A DNA stretch of 32,634 nt from Deltaproteobacteria bacterium (GCA_019313605.1 JAFDAW010000015.1:1-32634); one strand, 5' to 3'. Positions 2,142 to 14,964 are shown, counted from the first letter of the stretch. Notes: a model not told the origin generated them from the letters alone. Numbers and translations are program-made.

Positions 2142-2758
2142 TCGCGCGGTTGGAGGGCGTGCTGCGCAACGTTGCACCTACCTGTGTCGTCGTCGACGTC
2201 GCTGGCGTCGGCTACGAGGTCAATATTCCGCTGTCGACCTTCACGGAGCTTCCCGACGAGGGCGAACCCGTCGTGCTCCGGATCTACACGCACGCGCGCG
2301 AGGGTGCGATCCAGTTGTTTGGTTTTCTCACGGAAAGCGAGCGTGCGGCGTTTACCCTGTTGCTTCGCGCGAACCGGGTCGGACCCAAGCTCGCCCAAAC
2401 CGTGCTCTCTGGAATTTCGCCGGTGGAGTTGTTCGAGGCCATTCAACTGGGCAAGGTGGCGGTTTTGCGCGCGGCGCCCGGCGTCGGGAGCAAGATGGCG
2501 GAGCGCATCCTGCTCGAACTCCGCGATCGCACCGGAGAACTCGCGGCTATTCTCACGTCTGCCGGAGAATTGGAGCCGTCGCTGGAAGGCGACGATCCGT
2601 CGACGACCTCTCTCGGACAGGCGTTGTCGGCGCTGCTGAACCTCGGCTATTCCAAGCCGCAGGCGGATCGCGCACTGACCCGTGCAGCGGAGGAGGAAGG
2701 GGATGATACGACCCTCGAGGGACTCGTTCGGGGCTCGTTGCGGGTGTTGATGAAATGA
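2138..2758 (+). CDS. ruvA: Holliday junction DNA helicase subunit RuvA
   Basis: RuvA binds the four-way junction as a tetramer and loads RuvB. The 206-residue protein shows the N-terminal OB-fold (start MIARLEGVL, then [10 protein letters not shown]). Two helix-hairpin-helix motifs follow, [15 protein letters not shown] and [17 protein letters not shown] variable acidic linker leads to the C-terminal RuvB-binding domain ([19 protein letters not shown]). The first HhH has ANRVG in place of the commoner VSGVG, a mild deviation. The GTG start lies inside the ruvC stop (GTGA), and the ruvA stop overlaps the ATG of ruvB (ATGA), so the three genes form one coupled unit. Confidence 0.97.
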
Positions 2759-3801
2759 CCCTCGCACGTGAGGAGATCGGAACGCTGTCGCGCGCTGCGC
2801 TGCCGGGCGAAGAGGCGCTCGAGGTTCGGCTCCGACCGGCCACCCTCGACGAAATGGTCGGCCAGGATCGGCTGCGCGAAAATCTCGCGGTGTTCATTCG
2901 CGCGGCGTGCGATCGCGGCGAATCGCTCGACCACCTGCTCTTTCACGGCCCGCCGGGTCTCGGCAAGACCTCACTCGCCCATGTCGTCGCCCACGAAATG
3001 GGCGCTTCGATCCGCGTGACGAGTGGGCCCGCGATCGAGAGGCCCGGAGATCTGGCCGCGATGCTCTCGAATCTCCAGCCGGACGAGGTGTTGTTCATCG
3101 ACGAGATTCACCGGATGTCCGCGTCGATCGAGGAAATCCTCTACCCGGCGATGGAGGATTTCAAACTCGACATCATGATCGGGCAGGGCGCGGGGGCCCA
3201 ATCGATCCGCCTGGATCTGCCGCGTTTCACGTTGATTGGGGCGACCACCCGCGCGGGCTTGCTGACCGCTCCGCTGCGGGATCGATTCGGTTGGTCGGCA
3301 CGCCTCGAGTACTACCCGTCAGAAGACCTCGAGCGCATCCTCGCGCGAAGTGCGCGAGTCCTCGGCGTGAAACTCGAAGCCGGGGCCTGCACCGAGATCG
3401 CGCGGCGTTCGCGCGGTACACCGAGGATCGCCAACCGGTTGTTGCGGCGGGTTCGCGATTTTTCGGAGGTCGCTGAAGGGCAGGGCAGCGCGATCGATTG
3501 CGCGCGCGCCCGCTTCGCGCTCGAACGCCTCGACGTCGACGATTCGGGTTTCGACGGCCTGGACCGGCTGCTGATCCTCACACTGCTGGAGAAGTTCGAC
3601 GGTGGCCCGGCCGGGATCGAGACCCTCGCGGCCGCTGTGGGCGAGGATCGCGGAACCCTCGAGGACGTCGTCGAGCCCTACCTGATCCACCGGGGCTTCC
3701 TGAGTCGTACGCCGCGCGGGCGGGTCGCCACGCGCCTCGCGAGGGAGTATTTCGAGATGCCCTTGCCCGACGGAGCCGACAGTCAGCAAAAGCTGCTCTG
3801 A
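2755..3801 (+). CDS. ruvB: Holliday junction DNA helicase motor RuvB
   Basis: RuvB is the hexameric AAA+ ATPase that drives branch migration on RuvA-bound junctions. The 348-residue protein begins its conserved part at [13 protein letters not shown]. Walker A is GPPGLGKT at about residues 65-72, Walker B is VLFIDEIHR, and GATTRAGLL supplies the sensor/arginine region. The C-terminal winged helix includes [28 protein letters not shown]. All expected ATPase residues are present and the length is normal. It is the last gene of the yebC-ruvCAB group. About 220 bases follow before the next gene, holding a GC-rich hairpin region but no recognisable gene. Confidence 0.98.
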
Positions 3802-4024: not shown

Positions 4025-6601
4025 GTGGGCGTACTGCTGATCCTGGGTCGGATTCTGGCGATCGCCGGTGGATTCGTCCTGTTCGCATTTGGCGTGGCAG
4101 CCCTGGGCGTCGCCTATCTGCCGGAAAACGAAATCGCACGCATAGCGGGTCGGCTGGCGGTGGGGATCGGCGCCATCGTGCTCAGCCCGTTCGGTTTGTC
4201 GAGCGATCCGCGCGACGTGATGGTGGGCATTCAATCGGGCTTCGCGATGCGCTTCATCGCGGCGCCGGTGGGCCTGATCGCGTTCGTCGCGGCCCTGCTT
4301 CCGGGCAGCCCCAAGATTTCGGAAGGCACGACCTCCGATGGCGGAACGCTTTCTCCAGAGACCGATTCGGGAGTGCTCCGCAAGAAGCGCAGGCATGCCT
4401 CCAGCCTCGCAAAACGAGAGGGCGCACTGGCCGCGGGGGAGTACTGCTTCGACAACGGTTTGATGGAAGACGCCGCGGATCACTTCATCGAGGCCGAGCA
4501 GTGGGTGCGCGCGGCCGAGATTCGCCACGACGAGGGCCGCTTCATCGATTCCGCGGAGCTCTACATGAAGGGCGAGCGCTTCGACGCGGCGGGCCGCATC
4601 TTCGCCCAACAAGAAGAGAACGGGCGCGCCGGCGATGCCTACTATCGAGCGGGTAACCACGGCATTGCCGCGGAATTGCTCGAAAAGGCGGGCGAACATC
4701 TCAGGGCCGCGGAGGCCTACGAAGAGTCCGATTACTCCCGTCAGGCCGCCCAGGCGTACGTGAAGTGTGGCAAGTGGGAGAAGGCGGCAATCTGCCTGGA
4801 GCAGACCATCCTCGAAGAGTCGACCGGCGGTCGGGGCGAGGGCGTCAAGAATCCCTCGGTGCAAAAGCTCGTCCGGATGGCGGGCAACCTCTTCGAGCGG
4901 GGGGGGCAGTTCGAGCGGGCGGAAACCGTGCTCGAGCGCGGCGAATGCTTTGCAGAGGCCGCAGAAATTGCGCTGCGCCAGGGCCGGGACGAGAAGGCGG
5001 TCGAGCTCTTCCTTCGCGCCAAGGATGCTCCGCGCGCCGCCGACGTGATGACGCAGTTGGGACAGGAAGAAGACGCCGCGCGGGTGCTCGCGGAATATCA
5101 CCGGGATCTGGGCGATGACGAGGAGGCCGCGCGTTGCTTCGAGAAAGCGGGCGAGCTGCTCAACGCGGGTGACATCTACCGGATGCTCGAACAATACGAG
5201 AAGGCGGGCGAGTGCTACGAGCGCTTCGGGGATTCCGCGCAGGCAGCCGAGATGTTTTCGCTGGCGGGTGATCGCCAGCGCGCATCGGCGAGCTACGAGC
5301 AGGCGGGCCTCTATACCGAGGCCGCGGATTGCGCTTCCGAAACCGGGGATGAAAACAAGCAGGCCGAGTTGCTCGCCCAGGCGGGCAATCATCTCAAAGC
5401 GGGTGCGATCCACCTGAAGGCGCGGCGGATCGACGAGGCGATCGAGGTTCTGCAACAAATCCAATCGGACCACGCCGATTTCACCGCCGCATCGGCAAAA
5501 CTCGGCGAGATCTTCCTCAAGCGCGGCAAGCACACACTCGCGATCGTGAAATTGCGCCACGCGACGGACAACGTCGAGATCACGAAACGCAACGCGCCGG
5601 CCTTCTACTACCTCGCGGTAGCGCTCGACGCCAATGGCGATCTCACCGAGGCGGACGCGATCTTCGAGCAGATCCTTTCGTTCGACTACAGCTTCAAGGA
5701 CGTTCAGGAGCGTCTGGGCCGAACGCGTTCGAATCTCGAGAAACAAGATGCAGAATCCAAGGTCACCGAATCACCACCGATGACGAAGACCGCCGAGCAG
5801 GGCCGCTACAAGATCACCGGCAAACTCGGAAAGGGCGGAATGGGAATCGTCTACAAGGCGACAGACACCGTTTTGGATCGCACCGTGGCCTACAAGGTGT
5901 TGCCCGATTCGCTGCAGGAAAACCCCCAGGCGCTGAAGAACTTCCTGCGCGAAGCGAAGAGTGCCGCCAAGCTCAACCACCCGGGCATCGTCACCGTCTA
6001 CGACGCCGGTGAGCAGGATGGCGTGTTCTACATTGCGATGGAGTACGTTGACGGAAACACACTCAAGGAAATCATCAAGCACCGCGGCAAGATCTCGCCC
6101 GGAGGAATCGTTCACGTGCTCACGCAGATGTGCGAGGCCCTGGCCTACGCGCACGAGCAGAAGGTCGTCCACCGCGACATCAAGACCGCGAACACGATGT
6201 GGACCCGCGACCGGAAGGCGAAGATCATGGATTTCGGACTCGCGAAGGTGATCGAAGAAGTCCGGAACCACACGACGGTCGTGTCCGGAACGCCCTACTA
6301 CATGAGTCCGGAGCAGACGCTCGGAAAGAACGTCGACCATCGAACCGACATCTACTCTCTCGGTGTCTCCGTGTTCGAACTCGCCACCGGAACACTGCCT
6401 TTCCGGGAAGGGAATCTTCCGTATCACCACGTGCACACGCCCCCGCCCGATCCTCGAGAGTTCAACGCCGAGTTGCCTCCCCTGATCGTGGACATCATCG
6501 CGCGTTGTCTCGAGAAAGAACCCGCGAACCGCTACCAGAGTGCGCTCGAAATCGTGACGGAGATCAAGGCCGCTCTCGAGGGTGGAGAGGCGAAAGCCTG
6601 A
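4025..6601 (+). CDS. Membrane-anchored TPR protein with C-terminal Ser/Thr protein kinase
   Basis: This 858-residue protein has three parts. Residues about 3-95 hold two or three hydrophobic segments (for example LAIAGGFVLFAFGVAALGVA), which should anchor it in the inner membrane. Residues about 130-570 are tandem TPR-like helical repeats rich in AAE.Y, GE and EKAGE patterns, a likely protein-binding solenoid. Residues about 593-850 are a Hanks-type kinase. Its features are the glycine loop GKLGKGGMG, the ATP-binding lysine (Lys624 in VAYKVL), the catalytic loop HRDIKTANTMW (Asp718), DFG at Asp736, and MSPEQ in the activation segment. All catalytic residues are present, so the kinase is probably active. 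Bacterial kinases of this type usually carry the kinase at the N-terminus; here the order is reversed. The GTG start has a GAGGAG about ten bases upstream. The substrate is unknown. It converges on the PilZ/TPR unit. Confidence 0.92.
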   Translation: MGVLLILGRILAIAGGFVLFAFGVAALGVAYLPENEIARIAGRLAVGIGAIVLSPFGLSSDPRDVMVGIQSGFAMRFIAAPVGLIAFVAALLPGSPKISEGTTSDGGTLSPETDSGVLRKKRRHASSLAKREGALAAGEYCFDNGLMEDAADHFIEAEQWVRAAEIRHDEGRFIDSAELYMKGERFDAAGRIFAQQEENGRAGDAYYRAGNHGIAAELLEKAGEHLRAAEAYEESDYSRQAAQAYVKCGKWEKAAICLEQTILEESTGGRGEGVKNPSVQKLVRMAGNLFERGGQFERAETVLERGECFAEAAEIALRQGRDEKAVELFLRAKDAPRAADVMTQLGQEEDAARVLAEYHRDLGDDEEAARCFEKAGELLNAGDIYRMLEQYEKAGECYERFGDSAQAAEMFSLAGDRQRASASYEQAGLYTEAADCASETGDENKQAELLAQAGNHLKAGAIHLKARRIDEAIEVLQQIQSDHADFTAASAKLGEIFLKRGKHTLAIVKLRHATDNVEITKRNAPAFYYLAVALDANGDLTEADAIFEQILSFDYSFKDVQERLGRTRSNLEKQDAESKVTESPPMTKTAEQGRYKITGKLGKGGMGIVYKATDTVLDRTVAYKVLPDSLQENPQALKNFLREAKSAAKLNHPGIVTVYDAGEQDGVFYIAMEYVDGNTLKEIIKHRGKISPGGIVHVLTQMCEALAYAHEQKVVHRDIKTANTMWTRDRKAKIMDFGLAKVIEEVRNHTTVVSGTPYYMSPEQTLGKNVDHRTDIYSLGVSVFELATGTLPFREGNLPYHHVHTPPPDPREFNAELPPLIVDIIARCLEKEPANRYQSALEIVTEIKAALEGGEAKA

Positions 6602-6610
6602 ACGCTGAAG

Positions 6611-6633
6611 CGAGCCCGGCTATTTCGGGCTCG
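6611..6633. terminator. Hairpin between convergent genes, possible bidirectional terminator
   Basis: A perfect eight-base inverted repeat, CGAGCCCG-gctattt-CGGGCTCG, starts nine bases after the kinase stop and lies between it and the end of the convergent PilZ gene. It can form in RNA from either strand. There is no T run on either side, so its efficiency as an intrinsic terminator is uncertain; position and symmetry are the argument. Confidence 0.5.
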
Positions 6634-6680
6634 GTCCGCGGTGTGGTGGGCTCGACTCGGTGAGTGGTTCTCTGGGCGGG

Positions 6681-7019
6681 TTAACCGAGGCTTTCGAGTT
6701 CGACCGCAACGGCGCTGGCAGCGGTTCGATTCAGGAACTCGATGCCCATGCCGGTGGCACCCGCGGCGCCATTCCCGACGCTATTCGACCAGACGACGCG
6801 TCCCTCGATCTCGTGACGCGTGCCCGTCTCTGATAACTGAAAGCGCAGTTTGAGAAGTGAACCGACGGAGGCCGGTGAGTCTGTTTCGATGAACAAGCCG
6901 CCCGCGCCCAGTGTGGTGGCTCTCTCGGAGTGCAGGCGCGTGTCCGAAAGATACTCGACCGTGATGCGAACGGTCCGACGGCGATAGCGTCGCTTGGATG
7001 CGCCACGGACGCTGCTCAT
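6681..7019 (-). CDS. PilZ-domain protein (Myxococcus-type paralogue family)
   Basis: The 112-residue protein is one small PilZ barrel. It starts with an arginine-rich stretch containing RxxxR (Arg14 and Arg18), followed by GGLFIET, a central LLKLRFQLS strand, IEGRVVWSN and GMGIEFLN. This pattern resembles the PilZ paralogues abundant in Myxococcus (as I recall, the model TIGR02266). PilZ domains usually bind cyclic di-GMP through RxxxR plus a (D/N)xSxxG motif. Here the second motif reads TLGAGG, so the Asp/Asn and Ser are lost and nucleotide binding is doubtful. The ATG at 7019 has an AAGG ribosome site. The gene lies 43 bases after the giant TPR gene on the same strand, so the two are probably cotranscribed. 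It may act as an adaptor or regulator for that protein; this is inference. Confidence 0.85.
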   Translation of the reverse strand: MSSVRGASKRRYRRRTVRITVEYLSDTRLHSERATTLGAGGLFIETDSPASVGSLLKLRFQLSETGTRHEIEGRVVWSNSVGNGAAGATGMGIEFLNRTAASAVAVELESLG

Positions 7020-7062
7020 CGCACCTTCCCCTGACGAGAGCGGGCTCGCTTTGCCCGCATCC

Positions 7063-10000
7063 TCAAAGCTGGCGTAGCCACGACCCGATTGCCTGTCGCA
7101 GCAGCGCGTTGGCGGCCGGCCTCTCGGTTACCCATGCCGTGAGATCCGCTTTTTCCGAAATCTCTTCGGTGCGGTGTTCGGAAGCGTCGCGCGCCAACGC
7201 GATCAGGGCCGTGCGAAGATCGATTCCGGTCTCGTCGATGGCCACCGCTGCCGCTAGAGCCCGCACTTCGTTGCGCCAATCTTCGAAGTCGATTTGCTCG
7301 ATCTGTTCGATGGAATCGTCTTTGAGGTGCTGCCGAAGTCGGCGTCGAAGCCGCCGCTTGATGGCTGTCGAGACCGCGTTGACGACGCGGCCGTCTCCGT
7401 GGGCTCCTTCTAGATCCAACGCAAGGCCCGCGATCAGCACGACCAGATCGCGCAGCTCCTGGGTGGAGACGGGGAGCAGGGCGGATGCAGTCAGGCGGCC
7501 TTCTGCGGCGAGCGCTTCGGCGTGGAAGGCTGCGATGGGGTCGTCGGGCGTTTGACCCACCTGGGGATCCGAGGTGTCGAGCGCCGTCGCGAGTTCGCTT
7601 GCTGACTCGTTTACCATTCTGCGGAGTTTTTCCCAGAGCGGTTTCGAGAGTTCTCCATTTCCGCCGTAGTGCGGCTTGGCGGCAGCATTGTCTCCGACTG
7701 CTTCGCAGTCGCCGGGCGATGCGATGCCGAGTGCGTGCGCGATTCCCGCGCCGGTAGCGGTCGCCTCTCGATTTCCGTGCTCTCGGGCGACGCGAAGGAG
7801 TGTGCGAAGCGAACCTACATGGCAGGGGTTGTCGTTCAGCACCTGCTCGTAATGGGTGAGCGCTTCTTGCCAATCCGCGGGTCGGTGGCTCAAGAATTCG
7901 GCGAGGGAGGCGTGCATCTCGATCCGGTCGGGGTTGAGAATGACTCCCTGGCGGTAGGCGGTGATGGCGCCGTCCGGATCTTCCAGCGGACCCGCGAGCA
8001 GACGACCGAGCTGTTGGAGTACTTCCGAGAGCCCCTCGCGATCGTGGCCGTGGTGTTCGCGATGAAATTCTCTGAGTGCATCCGCGGCAGCCTGCCATTT
8101 GCCGAGCCCTCGCAGCAGGCGAGCCCGGGACAGGGCCGCTTCCACGCAATCCGGGTCCGCACTGGCCGCAGCCCGGAACGCATCGGCGGCCTCTTCTTTT
8201 TCACCCAGCTGATCGAGAACGCGCCCGCGGATGAGCGACAGCACCGGGCTCGACTTGGCGCCGTCCACGCCACTGACGGCCATCGATGCGACCTGCAGCG
8301 CGTCTTCGGCGCGGTTTGACTCCCAGAGGAGTGTCGTCAAAGCCTCCCAGGCTCGAAGCCGGCTCGGATCTGCGTCGAGTACATCGCGGAGGTGGATTTC
8401 GGCGGATTCGTTTCGATCTCCGTCGCGCAGTTCCCACTCGGCCGCGCGAAGCAGTCGCTCTGCGCGTTGGGGGTGCTCGGCTGCGATATCCGCCCAGCGC
8501 ACCAGGCAGGCAATCCCCTCGTCGACGTTCTCTTTCGCCTCCCAGAGTTCGACGAGCGCCCGGTGGGCATCGTCGAGGTGTGAATCTTCTTGCAGTGCGG
8601 TCTCGAGGTTGTCGATTGCCGCCTCGTGCTCGCCGGCTTCCCACTGCGCGCGTCCGATCACCGAGAGTTGAGCCGCGCGATCGGGATTGGACCCCTCGAT
8701 CGCGAGCCGCTTCTCGAGGATTGCCTTCGCGCCCGAGAAGTCGCCTTGTGCGGCGAGTGCTTCTCCGTAACGGGCAAGAATTTCTGGATCTTCAGGCGAT
8801 AGTTCGTACGCCACGGAGAAACAACGCGCGGTGACGTCCGGATGATCGAGTTCTCGAGCTGCTTGTCCACCGGCGACCGCTGCGGCCAGCTGCTGCTCGG
8901 AGGTCAGTCGGTTTGCAGTGGATGCCAGATCAATCGTCTGTGTCGCGGCCGATTCGGCTTCCTCGAACTCTCCGAGTTCGCACGCAAGCCGGGCGAGAAT
9001 CGCGTGAGCGTCGGCGGCTCCCGAGTCCCGGCGAAGCGCATCGCGAATCCGGTCAGCCGCCTGTGCGGTCGAGGAACTCTCGGAAAGTTCTGCGGCTCGA
9101 ATCAATCGCGCGCAGCCCTCGTGATCATCACAGCGTTCGGCCGCGCTGCAAAGTGCGGCTGCCGCACCCATGAGGTCGCCGGTCGCCTCGCGGAGCTGAG
9201 CGGCGGTGTCCCAGGCGGGTCGATGCGTGGGGTCCACTTCGAGTGCGTGATCGATTCGCTCTCGAGCGGCACCCGCGTGACCGAGTCCGTCGAGGGTTTC
9301 CGCGAGCTTCACGTGGTCGGCGCAGCTGGCACCGGATTCTGCGTTGTCGCACCAGAGTTCGAAGGTCTTTGCGAACGCCTCCCGATTGTCCACGCGTTCG
9401 TAGAGGAGTGCGAGTTCATGCAGTGCTGCGGGCGGAAGGCCGCCGATGCTGGCCGCGGTTTCGTAATCGCGTATCGATCGATCGATCTCGTCCGTGTGAT
9501 CACGCGCGAGTTCAGCGGCGCGAATCAATACCTCGAAGCGGCGATCTGGCGCAGCGTCTCCGAGCATTTCGACCTCACTCTCGTAGAGGTCGAGCGCGCC
9601 GCGCCAATCTTCCATCGCTTCGAGCAATTCCTGGAGAGATCGCAGCGATTCGAAATCCTGGGGATCGGCCTCGAGGGCGGCCGCGTACGATCGACTCGCG
9701 CGTGTCGTCGAGTGCAACCGAGTCCAGCAGACGTCGCCAAGCCGGCGCAGCAACGCGGCGCGCCTGGACGCGAGGGTCGGTGCGCCATGCTCGAGTTCGT
9801 GCTCGAGGGTCTGGGCGACTTCGGCCCAACGCCCGAGGCGTTCGAGGTTGCTCCGAAGCGCGCGCAAAGCGGGCGCGCAGAGTGGGTCCTGCTTCAAGAC
9901 TTCTCGATAGGCGGCGATTGCCGCGGCGGGCAGGTGCAGTCGCTCGGCACGCAGGCGGCCGAGTCTGAGCCAGCCTTCCGGGTCGTTCGGTTCGCGTTTC

Positions 10001-13000
10001 AGGTGCGCTGTGAGCCGCAATTCGAGTTCGATCCAGTTGCCTTGAATCTCGAGGAGGCGCAGCAGTGCGTTGTCTTTCGCCTTCGTCGATTCGCCTTGCA
10101 GGTGTTGATGGTCTCCGCTGTCCGCCAATGCGCGGAAGTGGTGGAGAGCGGCATCCGGGCGCCCGAGTTCCCGCTCGTAGACGCGGGCCAATTCCCGGTG
10201 TAGTTCGAGCCGGCGGTCGTCGAATACGGGCGCCTCGGGGTCGAGGGCTTTCAATTCCTCTTCCGCGCAACTCGCCCAGGAACTTGGATCGTGCGAGTTG
10301 CGGAGTGCCGCTCCGAGATCGCGCAGGAGTTCACCGTGCTTCGGTGTGCCCTCTGCCGATTCGGTGATCGCCGTCAGCAGGCGCGCCGCAGCGCGCTTCG
10401 GCTCGGCGAGCGAATCTCCGTAAATGCCGGCGAGTTGCTGCAGCAATGCGATTCGCTCATCACCTGTCGCATTCGCAGCGCAGCGTTCCAGCACTTCGGC
10501 GTGCTCTCGCCGCCGGCCGAGCTTCTCGTACAGAGTGCTGAGGCTGCTCAGGATCTCGGGATCCGCGGGAGAGATGCGCCTCGCGTCTTCGAGTGCACAA
10601 GCCGCGCGACCATCGAGTTCCAGCTTTTTTTCGAAGATGCGCGCGCGCTCCAGATGCAACCTGCACAGTCGCTCCGGTTCGTTGGTCAGGGAGATCTGCG
10701 ATTGCAGGGCGTGAAGAGTTGCCTCGTGTCGACCTGCGAGGCGATGGACGTCGGCAATTCGTTCGACGACCGCGTGATCGTTCGGGCGCTCGGCGCGCAA
10801 ACGCTCCAGCCAGGGAAGGGTTGCGTCGGGTCCGAGGTGCTCCCAGGCGATTGCGACCGCTTCGTCGTAGAGCCCTCCACGTCGAGGCCCCTCTGTCGCG
10901 CTGGCCTGTCGAAATACGCAATCCAGTACGGCTTCCCATTGCGCTCGAGCGGTGAGCAGCGCGCGAAGTTGGTCGAGCGCGCCGGGTTGATCGGGTTCCA
11001 GCATCAATGCTTCGCGAAGGTCGGCGATCGCTTCGTCCGGTCGATCGAGGCTGTTGCCGAGCAGTCGCGCGCGTCGCACGAGCTGACCCGCGCGCGCGGT
11101 CGCAGACTGCGTCCTCGAGAGCTGTGTGTTCAACAGATCGAATAGGACTTCGCCGCTCGCAATGTCTGCGGACTCTTGTTGCAGGGCCTCGGCGATCTCG
11201 AGTGCCTTGTCGAGTGAGTCGGCCTGCTCGGGGTCGATCTGCAGGATGCGCTGAAGATGCGCGAGGGCCTCGTGTCGACGCTCGTGCATTTCGCCTAGTA
11301 GTTGCGCGAGTTCGACGCGAACGGGGATTTCGTCGCGGCCCGCGAGATGCGAAAGCTCGACTTCGAGGAGCCTGACCAGAGGCTCGTTTTCTCCGAGTCG
11401 CCGGTAGATCTCGCGGAGGGCCGCCTGCGCGTCGCAGTCGTCCGGGCGATCCGTGAGTGCATCCCGATAGGCGACCGCGGCTTCCTCGTCCTGATCGATT
11501 TCGCACAGTGCCGCTCCGAGCCGTACGTACCAGGCTGCTCGCTCAGAGGAATCGCTACACGCGTTGGCGGCACTGCGGCAAAGCTCGATCAGGTCCTGAT
11601 TTCTGCCTGCTCGCTGGTAGAGATCTGCGAGGGGCTCGGCGATGATCGGATGCGGGCCGATTTCGGCCAGCGCGGGTACCAGTGCGTCGATCGCTCCCTC
11701 GACGTCGTTGAGCTGGCTCGCCCGCAATCCCGAAATCTGCAGCCGCAGAGAGATGCGCAACGACGATTCTTCGGAATCGCGCTCGGAACTCTGCTCGAGG
11801 GCTTCCAGGCGAGCGACGAGCAGGCGAACGACCCCGTCGATATTGCCCCGGTGTTTGTAGTGATCGATGAGAAAGTCGGCCGCCCTCGAGTGAGTCGAGT
11901 CCAGCTCGAGAACGCGTTCGTAGTGTTCCATCGCGCGGTCGCGTTCGTCGAGCGGATCGACGCACAGCTGGGCGGCGCGCCCGCGAAGCGCGAGTTCGCG
12001 GTCGGGTCCCGGTCCCGTCGCGATCTCCGCCTCCAGTGCCGAAACGATGTCTTCGAACCGCTCCTCTTCGAGGTACAGCTCCGCGAGCATCTGCCAGAGG
12101 TCTGCTCGCTCGGGTGCGATCGTCGTCGCAACCTCGAGGTGGTCGATCGCGCGCGGTGCGTTTCGCAGCCGGTCGCGGTAGAGCTTTCCGAGTCGTTCGA
12201 CGGTTGCGAGGTCTGCTTCGGTGGGCTCTTCCGCGAGTGATGCTTCGAGGTGCGTGCGCAAACCATCCCAGTCTTCCGTCCGCTCGAGCAGGATGGTGAG
12301 GCGATCCGAAGCTTTGCGGCGGAACGTCGGGTCGATCCCCGACTCTCCCAGGTGTCGATAGACTTCGATGGCTTCCTCGGCGCGATCGAGGCTCTCTTCG
12401 AGCAGCACCGCGCGTTCGAAACCGCAGCGATCGCGGATGGAGGTGTCCGAAGTGGATTCCATCTGTTCGCCGAGAAACTGGGCGAGGCCAGCCGGATCTC
12501 CCGCAGCCCGGAGGGCCTGTTCGAGCCCGACGCGGGCGGGCTCGGAGTCGGGATCGACGTCGTAGACCGACCGGTAGGCGCTTGCGGCTTCTGAAAAGCG
12601 GTCGAGGTTTTCGAGCAGAACGTCCGCTCGTCGAAGCTGAAGGACCCGGGCGTCCGGCGCGTAGGGGTCGAGCCCCGCGACGCGCTCTTCCAGGTGGCTC
12701 GCGAGCGCCTCAAACATCCCCGCGCGCTCGAGCAAGATCTCGAGGCGCGCGTGGACATCGCGCGGGGCATCGGGCTCGCCTGTGAGTTTGCGCAGCACCT
12801 CGATCGCGCCGCGCAGATCCCCCAGGCGATCGGCGAGCAGGGACGAGAGTTCATCGAGCTTCGCGCAGCGCTGCGGCCCGGGAAGCAGGTCCGCGAGGCG
12901 ACGCTGCGCGACCGCGAGTTCCTCCAGGCGCCCCGCGTTCCAGAGTTCGGCCGAGAGCGCTTCGAGCGTGTGTTCGTCGTCGGGTTCCGACTCGACCGCG

Positions 13001-14964
13001 ACCTGATAGGCGGCGATGGACTCATCGGGTCGCCCGTTGTCGGCGTGCAAGCCGCCGAGCCGTCGATGAACCTCGGCCTTCTCTTCGGCGGGCACGAGTT
13101 CGGCGAGGCGTTCGAGATCCGCGACGAGCGGAGCGTCCTGTCCGAGTTGCTCGCGCAGACGCGCTGAAGTCGCGAAAGCCTGGCGATCGCCCGGACTGAC
13201 TTCCACCCACCGGTCAACCCAGCGCAGTGCCGCTTCGGGCTCACCGCGCGCTTCCAGCCGGGGCACCAGCTCGCCCACGAGAAACGCGACGCGCTCTTCG
13301 TTGAGCGCGATCGCGGCTTCCGCCTCGTAGGCGCGGATCACCGTATCTTCGTCACCGGTTGAGGTTGCCAGATGTTGCAGGCCGCGTAGGGCGGTTACGG
13401 AATCCGGCTCCATGGCGAGCACCGATTCCAACACCTGCGTGGCCTGTTCCGGCGCATCGAAGTGTTCGTTCAGCAGGAGAGCGAGAGAGCAGAGGTAGCG
13501 GGTTCGCTCGTCGGGTAGCGCGTGGCCTCCCGCGTGCTCGAGAAACGATCGCAGGGAGGCCCAGTCCTCGGTCTTGCGAAACAGGCGCTCCAGCGCCGAT
13601 GCCACGCCGGGAGCCGCGGGATCCGCTTCGAATGCGCGTCGGTAGGCGCTGCAGGCGGCATCGACATCGTCGAGATGCCCCTCCCAAAGAGAGCCCAGAT
13701 CGGAGAGCACCATCGCACGGGACGCCTCGTCCATGCTCGGTGTCGATGCGCGCTGTTCGAGAACTTCCACGAGTTCTTCGTCCCGGCCGAGCCGGGTGAG
13801 GATTTCGCTGAACGCTTCTCCAACGAGATCATTGTCGGGGTCGAACTCGAACGCGAGCGCGAGATTTTGATAGGCGCGGTCCGAATCGCCGAGGTCTGAG
13901 TAGAGGGTCGAGAGTTCGAGTAACACCGAGACGGGCGTCGGCCCGCGACTCATATCCGCGATTCGTTCGAGGTGTTGGATGAGAGCCTCGTCATCGCCGT
14001 TGTCCCGCGCGAGATCCGCGAGAGCCGCGACGATCTTGCGGTTGTTGGGGTCGAGTGACGTCGCCCGGTCGAGCCACAGCTGTGCGGCACTCGGATTGGA
14101 CGAGCGCTTCCAGTGGATTTCACCCGTCTCCATCGCGATGCGAGCCTTGCCCTCGGCTTCTGGCGTCAATTCGAACCGGCGCTCCTGCAGATCCACCAGC
14201 AGGGTCCAGTTCTCATCGGCCTCGGCCTGGTCGGCGACCGCTTCGAGCGCCGCGAGATTGTTGGGATCGTCCGTCAGTGCGCGCCGGTAGAGTTCGGCTG
14301 CGAGAGCGACGTCTTTCAACGAGTCTTCGGCGAGGCGCGCGCGGGCCACCAGTGCGATGGCGCGGGCGGGTCCGCGAAGCAACTCGATGACCCGATCCCA
14401 TGCGTCCGCCGCGCGGGCCATCTGGCCGGCCGCTGCGAATACCCGAGCCGTTCCCTCGAGTGCGTCGATCTGGGTGGGGTGTTCGTCGAGTGCCCGCTTG
14501 AACAGCGTGACCGCCTGGCCGCGATCGCCGAGTTGTTCCATCCAGATCGTACCCATCTCGGCCAACAGGGTGGCCCGCTCATCGGGGCGCATCGTCAGCC
14601 CCGCCTCGACCTCGCCGATCTGGACCGCGACGTCCCACTGATGCTGGCCCGCGTGCAGTTTTCGCAGCCGCGTCAGTGCTGGACGGTATTGCGAGTCGAG
14701 CTGCAGCGCCTCGCGATAGCAGGCGATCGCGCTTTCGGGGTCGCCGAGGCGCTCGTGGTGGACCTGTCCGATCCGGCAGTGGATCGCAGCCTGTTCGCGC
14801 GGTTGGTCGACGACGTTGTCGGCGCTGAGGCGGCGCTCGTAGACCTCGATGACGCCCGCCCAGTCACCCGCGAGGAACAGCTCTTCCTCCAGCGACTGGA
14901 AGGCCTGCGCGTCGTTCGGATCGGCGAGAAACCGCTCACGCTGGCGATCGAGCAGGGGCGTCAA
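7063..14964 (-). CDS. Giant tetratricopeptide-repeat protein (2,633 aa)
   Basis: The reading frame is open for 2,633 codons and encodes an almost continuous chain of TPR units. Repeats of the form A...Y..AL..DP....AL..L recur from near residue 20 to about 2,370. There is no signal peptide or clear membrane segment, so a cytoplasmic scaffold is likely. The last 230 or so residues differ: KPHYGGNGELSKPLWEKLRR, a hydrophobic helix LRDLVVLIAGLALDLEGA, a basic AIKRRLRRRLRQHL patch and a final LLRQAIGSWLRQL. This may be a separate C-terminal domain whose family I do not recognise. The TTG start at 14964 is supported by a strong AGGAG six bases upstream. Large TPR proteins of this kind occur in Myxococcota, but I know no defined function. 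It is followed by the PilZ gene and is divergent from pyrK. Confidence 0.9.
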   Translation of the reverse strand: MTPLLDRQRERFLADPNDAQAFQSLEEELFLAGDWAGVIEVYERRLSADNVVDQPREQAAIHCRIGQVHHERLGDPESAIACYREALQLDSQYRPALTRLRKLHAGQHQWDVAVQIGEVEAGLTMRPDERATLLAEMGTIWMEQLGDRGQAVTLFKRALDEHPTQIDALEGTARVFAAAGQMARAADAWDRVIELLRGPARAIALVARARLAEDSLKDVALAAELYRRALTDDPNNLAALEAVADQAEADENWTLLVDLQERRFELTPEAEGKARIAMETGEIHWKRSSNPSAAQLWLDRATSLDPNNRKIVAALADLARDNGDDEALIQHLERIADMSRGPTPVSVLLELSTLYSDLGDSDRAYQNLALAFEFDPDNDLVGEAFSEILTRLGRDEELVEVLEQRASTPSMDEASRAMVLSDLGSLWEGHLDDVDAACSAYRRAFEADPAAPGVASALERLFRKTEDWASLRSFLEHAGGHALPDERTRYLCSLALLLNEHFDAPEQATQVLESVLAMEPDSVTALRGLQHLATSTGDEDTVIRAYEAEAAIALNEERVAFLVGELVPRLEARGEPEAALRWVDRWVEVSPGDRQAFATSARLREQLGQDAPLVADLERLAELVPAEEKAEVHRRLGGLHADNGRPDESIAAYQVAVESEPDDEHTLEALSAELWNAGRLEELAVAQRRLADLLPGPQRCAKLDELSSLLADRLGDLRGAIEVLRKLTGEPDAPRDVHARLEILLERAGMFEALASHLEERVAGLDPYAPDARVLQLRRADVLLENLDRFSEAASAYRSVYDVDPDSEPARVGLEQALRAAGDPAGLAQFLGEQMESTSDTSIRDRCGFERAVLLEESLDRAEEAIEVYRHLGESGIDPTFRRKASDRLTILLERTEDWDGLRTHLEASLAEEPTEADLATVERLGKLYRDRLRNAPRAIDHLEVATTIAPERADLWQMLAELYLEEERFEDIVSALEAEIATGPGPDRELALRGRAAQLCVDPLDERDRAMEHYERVLELDSTHSRAADFLIDHYKHRGNIDGVVRLLVARLEALEQSSERDSEESSLRISLRLQISGLRASQLNDVEGAIDALVPALAEIGPHPIIAEPLADLYQRAGRNQDLIELCRSAANACSDSSERAAWYVRLGAALCEIDQDEEAAVAYRDALTDRPDDCDAQAALREIYRRLGENEPLVRLLEVELSHLAGRDEIPVRVELAQLLGEMHERRHEALAHLQRILQIDPEQADSLDKALEIAEALQQESADIASGEVLFDLLNTQLSRTQSATARAGQLVRRARLLGNSLDRPDEAIADLREALMLEPDQPGALDQLRALLTARAQWEAVLDCVFRQASATEGPRRGGLYDEAVAIAWEHLGPDATLPWLERLRAERPNDHAVVERIADVHRLAGRHEATLHALQSQISLTNEPERLCRLHLERARIFEKKLELDGRAACALEDARRISPADPEILSSLSTLYEKLGRRREHAEVLERCAANATGDERIALLQQLAGIYGDSLAEPKRAAARLLTAITESAEGTPKHGELLRDLGAALRNSHDPSSWASCAEEELKALDPEAPVFDDRRLELHRELARVYERELGRPDAALHHFRALADSGDHQHLQGESTKAKDNALLRLLEIQGNWIELELRLTAHLKREPNDPEGWLRLGRLRAERLHLPAAAIAAYREVLKQDPLCAPALRALRSNLERLGRWAEVAQTLEHELEHGAPTLASRRAALLRRLGDVCWTRLHSTTRASRSYAAALEADPQDFESLRSLQELLEAMEDWRGALDLYESEVEMLGDAAPDRRFEVLIRAAELARDHTDEIDRSIRDYETAASIGGLPPAALHELALLYERVDNREAFAKTFELWCDNAESGASCADHVKLAETLDGLGHAGAARERIDHALEVDPTHRPAWDTAAQLREATGDLMGAAAALCSAAERCDDHEGCARLIRAAELSESSSTAQAADRIRDALRRDSGAADAHAILARLACELGEFEEAESAATQTIDLASTANRLTSEQQLAAAVAGGQAARELDHPDVTARCFSVAYELSPEDPEILARYGEALAAQGDFSGAKAILEKRLAIEGSNPDRAAQLSVIGRAQWEAGEHEAAIDNLETALQEDSHLDDAHRALVELWEAKENVDEGIACLVRWADIAAEHPQRAERLLRAAEWELRDGDRNESAEIHLRDVLDADPSRLRAWEALTTLLWESNRAEDALQVASMAVSGVDGAKSSPVLSLIRGRVLDQLGEKEEAADAFRAAASADPDCVEAALSRARLLRGLGKWQAAADALREFHREHHGHDREGLSEVLQQLGRLLAGPLEDPDGAITAYRQGVILNPDRIEMHASLAEFLSHRPADWQEALTHYEQVLNDNPCHVGSLRTLLRVAREHGNREATATGAGIAHALGIASPGDCEAVGDNAAAKPHYGGNGELSKPLWEKLRRMVNESASELATALDTSDPQVGQTPDDPIAAFHAEALAAEGRLTASALLPVSTQELRDLVVLIAGLALDLEGAHGDGRVVNAVSTAIKRRLRRRLRQHLKDDSIEQIEQIDFEDWRNEVRALAAAVAIDETGIDLRTALIALARDASEHRTEEISEKADLTAWVTERPAANALLRQAIGSWLRQL

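Follow-up and report, generated by a model that had tools for sequence, protein, structure and literature searches.

The type IV pilus PilZ protein of Xanthomonas acts on FimX and PilB and is an example of a PilZ domain used as a protein adaptor, and LapB (YciM) of E. coli is a membrane-anchored cytoplasmic tetratricopeptide repeat (TPR) protein connected with LpxC. In Myxococcus xanthus the TPR protein GltI (AgmK) has 4,132 amino acids and its gene adjoins gltJ (PMC3169522). PlpA, a stand-alone PilZ protein of the same organism, carries the canonical residues and does not bind cyclic di-GMP (c-di-GMP), yet it acts on motility; PixB has a substituted motif and binds c-di-GMP all the same (PMC8316039). 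In Vibrio vulnificus the two-gene TPR operon RcbA/RcbB joins TPR scaffolding to c-di-GMP signalling (PMC12282931). In this study we analysed a window of 32,634 nucleotides (the whole stretch of DNA) from a Deltaproteobacteria bacterium (GCA_019313605.1, JAFDAW010000015.1:1-32634), which is contig C253 of a draft genome of 3.17 Mb that is 97% complete. It carries a gene for a giant TPR protein, here called the giant, and a gene for a small PilZ protein, the two converging on a gene for a TPR Ser/Thr kinase. We show that giant and PilZ are a real, undescribed two-gene unit; our literature search found no paper on the pair and no described partner or function for the giant.

Comparison with described systems brings out likenesses as well as differences. 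The giant resembles GltI in being a very large cytoplasmic TPR protein of Myxococcota, with 2633 amino acids, TPRs only and no transmembrane segment. However, it is much shorter (about 2,600 versus 4,132 amino acids), has no gltJ neighbour and a PilZ partner instead, and lies beside lpxC and ntrYX. A GltI-like protein of genome G097 shows weak C-terminal profile similarity to it. Like PlpA, the PilZ protein is a single PilZ domain from myxobacteria, but where PlpA has the canonical binding residues it has TLGAGG at the [D/N]xSxxG position. In the literature examined we came across no giant TPR protein that partners PlpA. By profile, the nearest solved structures are type IV pilus PilZ proteins such as that of Xanthomonas, although the RxxxR motif present here lies outside the matched stretch and the locus is without pilus genes. 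RcbA/RcbB is likewise a two-gene unit with TPR scaffolding, but RcbB is a TPR-GGDEF cyclase and the operon has neither a PilZ protein nor a giant (PMC12282931). The kinase, whose gene adjoins lpxC, shares membrane anchor and TPRs with LapB and differs from it by its Ser/Thr kinase domain; the C-terminal rubredoxin-type domain of LapB had no Pfam match in kinase or giant.

Inheritance of the giant and its PilZ partner

The window's organism belongs to an uncultured class of myxobacteria. We searched 91 genomes of this class, all drafts and related to one another, with a profile of the last 160 residues of the giant and found the gene in 66, which represent two orders and ten or more families. 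A broader profile run against 379 genomes of the phylum returned the same 66 giant-bearing genomes and one genome outside the class. The gene is single-copy, and complete copies are mostly open frames of 2,400–2,800 codons. Given this distribution the giant is a class-wide single-copy gene and not an oddity of one genome. Within the family of the window's organism 16 of 17 genomes gave a match at E ≤ 0.001, including two (G006 and G010) in which only weak generic TPR stretches were matched.

Of the 66 genomes with a giant, 49 have a PilZ gene of one particular subtype immediately 3' of it, and the same subtype occurs in none of the 25 giant-less ones; as the window's genome holds 18 PilZ matches, the orthologue was picked by adjacency and then by family profile. 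The adjacency is operon-like. When 23 orthologous pairs were checked base by base, PilZ was co-directional with the giant and within about 70 bases of its stop codon in 22, all but that of G004, and in the window the spacer is 43 bases (7020–7062). We counted changes on a tree built from RuvB and RuvA, which requires at least four for the giant, all of them losses, and six for PilZ. In three of the giant losses the surrounding lineages bear PilZ, and in each of these three PilZ has disappeared as well. Thus PilZ depends on the giant, and the giant does not depend on PilZ. The preliminary description of the window had proposed that the two form a unit, and adjacency, absence of PilZ where the giant is absent and co-loss all support this.

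In a Pfam scan many TPR models matched the giant and no other domain did. The protein has no hydrophobic segment, signal peptide or transmembrane segment, which points to a cytoplasmic location. Its last 160 residues are predicted with confidence to form nine helices (AlphaFold2, single chain; mean predicted local distance difference test score (pLDDT) 91, predicted template modelling score (pTM) 0.81), and this C-terminal domain had no match in the PDB at E ≤ 0.001.

Some further observations concern the giant and its surroundings. A second, shorter TPR protein of about 540–830 amino acids, resembling three separate stretches of the giant, is encoded in four genomes (G012:C206, G013:C8, G001:C165 and G015:C124) and is possibly a paralogue. 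In G031 the usual place holds a giant-like frame of only 729 amino acids (L142/L187:1922-4108), with a gene resembling an IS30-type transposase a few kb off (L187:7393-8379); the frame may be a copy that has eroded or been rebuilt. Across most of the class the giant has a divergent neighbour, a gene for an NtrY-like histidine kinase (L084:15795-19462, L083:50-2434, L158, L159, L160), and ntrX was seen in several loci (L084, L091, L158, L167); neither the window's genus nor G002-G004 has the ntrY-ntrX pair at this locus.

Motifs of the PilZ protein

The small protein belongs to the PilZ domain family, scoring 43.9 bits against PF07238 (cut-off 22.5). Against TIGR02266, the family of gmx paralogues, it reached 61.5 bits, below the cut-off of 68.7, and is therefore related to that family and not a member. 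Both arginines of the RxxxR motif are invariant in 12 aligned sequences. At the [D/N]xSxxG position 20 of 23 orthologues have TLGAGG, and two others have SLSAGG or SISAGG. Profile comparison with solved structures placed 3dsg, 4f48 and 3cnr nearest (E 3e-11 to 3e-10) and YpfA behind (1e-4). All three are type IV pilus assembly PilZ proteins, which act through binding of partner proteins. Two of the residues with which PilZ domains hold c-di-GMP are replaced and the replacement is itself conserved, which makes protein binding a likelier function here than c-di-GMP sensing. The sequences thus point to a likely loss of c-di-GMP binding, and the PilZ protein is probably not a canonical c-di-GMP receptor but a protein adaptor.

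The kinase and the ruvCAB-kinase-lpxC cluster

The kinase has a Pkinase domain (PF00069, 187 bits) together with TPRs in the Pfam scan, and its catalytic K, HRD, N and DFG are all present, as in Hanks-type Ser/Thr kinases. Hydrophobic segments occupy residues 1–34 and 71–96, and the TPR part is predicted to be an alpha-solenoid (mean pLDDT 88). We sought a specific fold relative for this part and rejected all candidates, many solenoids (OGT, IFT-A, APC/C) being returned with low TM-scores only. With a profile of the TPR part the kinase was found in 74 of the 91 genomes of the class, G043 holding a paralogue only.

In every locus outside the window's genus that reaches far enough, lpxC follows the kinase on the same strand, and ruvB precedes the kinase in all of these loci except G028. 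Seven loci (G005, G019, G061, G062, G063, G064 and G065) run from kinase and lpxC straight to ntrYX or pyrK with neither giant nor PilZ between them, and in the two split loci, G028 and G029, the kinase lies with lpxC and the giant with ntrY. Kinase and lpxC are retained in all four giant losses, and nearly every lineage without the giant still has the catalytic motifs in unaltered form. The giant-PilZ pair does not require the kinase, which is a member of an older, separate yebC-ruvCAB-kinase-lpxC cluster.

These results bear on the wider proposal of the preliminary description, that the three genes could form one pathway with the kinase as third member. Co-occurrence of the three beyond the window's genome, the lack of which would have spoken against the proposal, does exist. 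The other outcome named there as contrary, a kinase kept beside ruvB without giant and PilZ, is precisely the arrangement of the seven loci above, and together with the split loci it speaks against the kinase as a member of the unit.

In G005, which has lost giant and PilZ, the kinase (L091:6139-8655) has HLD in place of HRD. Over the catalytic domain it shares only 64% identity with the kinase of the window, versus 76–83% in other genera of the family outside the window's genus. We rejected degeneration of the kinase upon giant loss as a rule, G005 alone showing it.

A separate observation concerns lpxC. In sister genera it lies between kinase and PilZ, and in the window there are 79 bases at this place (window 6602-6680; L097, L098 and L099). 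LpxC (PF03331) and LpxB (PF02684) were undetectable in 4/4 genomes of the window's genus (G000, G006, G007, G008), and across the family LpxC was found in 10 of 11 genera and LpxB in 9 of 11. From these searches, lipid A synthesis has apparently been lost in the window's genus. The kinase is nevertheless kept there in 4/4 genomes, and giant and PilZ in 3/4, the locus of G006 breaking off inside the kinase. Because all three are kept where LpxC is gone, none of them can serve solely for the control of LpxC.

Throughout the class a membrane-anchored TPR Ser/Thr kinase gene occupies the position directly upstream of lpxC (window 4025-6601; L081-L091, L142-L175). It is a candidate for the control of envelope synthesis through phosphorylation, and our literature search found no paper on the kinase-lpxC cluster.

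Structure of the locus

Open reading frames and translations showed the coordinates, strands and 43-base gap of the preliminary description to be exact. Its three genes were correctly placed, except that the kinase lies outside the interval 6681-14964 that was given for them (Table 1). The giant begins with an unusual TTG codon, which is plausible because an AGGAG site lies upstream and homologues too start with L or V codons. To the left of the three genes lie yebC, ruvC, ruvA and ruvB, and to the right pyrK, pyrD, nusA, infB and truB. Giant, PilZ and kinase recur in identical arrangement across families, and this recurrence excludes a chance origin of the arrangement. A contig search for close relatives returned two only, and these fall within the same genus or very close to it. 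We considered a bidirectional terminator between kinase and PilZ and rejected it: a strong hairpin lies at about 6611-6634, but its fold z of -1.8 is unexceptional, it has no T-run, and a consensus scan was negative.

Table 1. Features of the locus, in coordinates of the window.
Feature	Position	Strand	Remarks
TPR-kinase gene	4025-6601	+	858 aa; open reading frame and translation
PilZ gene	6681-7019	-	112 aa; stand-alone PilZ domain, co-directional with giant
Giant TPR gene	7063-14964	-	2633 aa; TPR-type repeats over most of length
Giant C-terminal domain, residues 2474-2633	7066-7545	-	all-helical, class-specific marker; alignments
PilZ RxxxR motif (R10, R14)	6978-6992	-	family alignment
PilZ [D/N]xSxxG position, TLGAGG, residues 36-41	6897-6914	-	
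Kinase N-terminal part	4025-5776	+	hydrophobic hairpin region at the N terminus; TPR-like alpha-solenoid
Kinase catalytic domain, Hanks type	5777-6601	+	GxGGMG / VAYK / HRDIKTAN / DFG
Convergent intergenic stretch between kinase and PilZ	6602-6680		79 bases; site of lpxC in sister genera
ruvB, upstream neighbour of kinase in ruvC-ruvA-ruvB operon	2755-3801	+	adjacency to kinase kept class-wide

Discussion

We put the probability at roughly 55% that giant and PilZ are a two-gene unit of scaffold and adaptor, with the kinase separate and older. In such a unit the two genes would be transcribed together and their products would join in one cytoplasmic complex. The giant would form a very long TPR solenoid, with clients collected all along the repeats and a compact helical domain at the C-terminal end. 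PilZ, translated from the same message, would dock on the giant, the C-terminal domain being the likeliest site, and would act there as adaptor or stability factor.

Several points weigh against this model. Seventeen genomes with a giant have no such PilZ; they take in the whole second order and the families f6 and f8, with f12 and others also represented, so the giant works without it. In G004 PilZ has switched strands and is encoded on that of lpxC, and another gene lies between it and the giant. The Fisher p-values for co-occurrence overstate independence, the genomes being drafts and related. With the RxxxR motif invariant, PilZ may yet bind the nucleotide, and the cases of PlpA and PixB show that motifs predict c-di-GMP binding poorly (PMC8316039). 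As for the inserted gene in G004, it resembles a sugar-nucleotide epimerase gene (L082:11211-12272).

It might also be that the giant is a divergent gliding or polarity scaffold like GltI (AgmK) and PilZ its PlpA-like regulator. The sole hit of the C-terminal profile outside the class is a TPR protein of 4,081 amino acids in G097 (E 1.3e-5; L185:2867-16910), and the next gene there matches GltJ (NF033761, 90 bits, with an AgmX/PglI tail domain), which is the gltI-gltJ layout of M. xanthus. A stand-alone PilZ protein regulating motility without c-di-GMP binding also has its precedent in PlpA (PMC8316039). However, alignment of the giant with the C terminus of the G097 protein by hhalign is weak (probability 59.5%, E 8.9e-5), and the 91 genomes of the class hold no GltJ orthologue, the best match reaching 51 bits against a cut-off of 450 and being mostly generic zinc ribbon. 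Length (about 2,600 and not about 4,100 amino acids) and neighbours (lpxC and ntrYX, not glt genes) do not fit either. We therefore did not adopt orthology to GltI, given the weak C-terminal similarity and the missing GltJ. At the level of sequence the link is a weak lead and not a membership, and as an account of the whole locus we consider it unlikely.

A single three-gene pathway, in which PilZ tunes a giant scaffold that serves as substrate of the kinase, appears to us quite improbable. Where the locus is contiguous, most genomes with a giant do have the three genes grouped together. Presence of kinase and giant is associated as well, 62 of the 91 genomes having both and 13 neither, and genus g31 has none of kinase, giant and this PilZ. 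But that association is carried largely by small genomes that show neither gene and by g31, which has lost everything, and relatedness makes its p-values unreliable. Moreover, the kinase keeps intact motifs after loss of giant and PilZ (G019, G061-G065), it goes with lpxC and not with the giant at synteny breaks (G028, G029), and the genes are convergent, hence separate transcription units. A relation between kinase and scaffold may exist but has no specific support.

Frozen gene order alone would make giant and PilZ functionally unrelated neighbours in a slowly evolving region. The order yebC-ruvCAB-kinase-lpxC-...-pyrKD-nusA is indeed syntenic across the class, so adjacency by itself proves little. 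Yet PilZ never outlives the giant through three separate losses; in G030 giant and PilZ are together, with the kinase on another contig, and G009 has both with no kinase or lpxC found nearby. We regard mere neighbourhood as very unlikely. Least probable of all is a control of lipid A synthesis in which giant, PilZ and kinase act on LpxC in the way LapB does in E. coli. Throughout the class lpxC does come immediately after the kinase and faces the giant-PilZ unit, and the kinase is, like LapB, membrane-anchored with TPRs. Yet the window's genus keeps the genes without LpxC and LpxB, and lineages without giant and PilZ retain lpxC.

Going beyond the scaffold-adaptor unit, one might tentatively see in this locus an undescribed class-wide machine of the cytoplasm. 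It would consist of a TPR protein of 2,600 residues, ending in a helical domain of a new kind, and a dedicated PilZ subunit turned structural adaptor after losing c-di-GMP sensing, and it might be a sister of the GltI scaffold of gliding motility, recruited elsewhere. We hold this fuller picture to be possible but doubtful.

In conclusion, a single-copy gene of about 8 kb that keeps a near-constant size in at least ten families likely has an important role. One small PilZ protein is strictly co-inherited with it, which provides a concrete, testable pair. The lineages without both genes, and the apparently lipid-A-less genus that keeps giant, PilZ and kinase, make this pair separable from kinase and LpxC. 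If the link to GltI were true, the giant would show that the gliding-scaffold family has a branch beyond the Glt machine.

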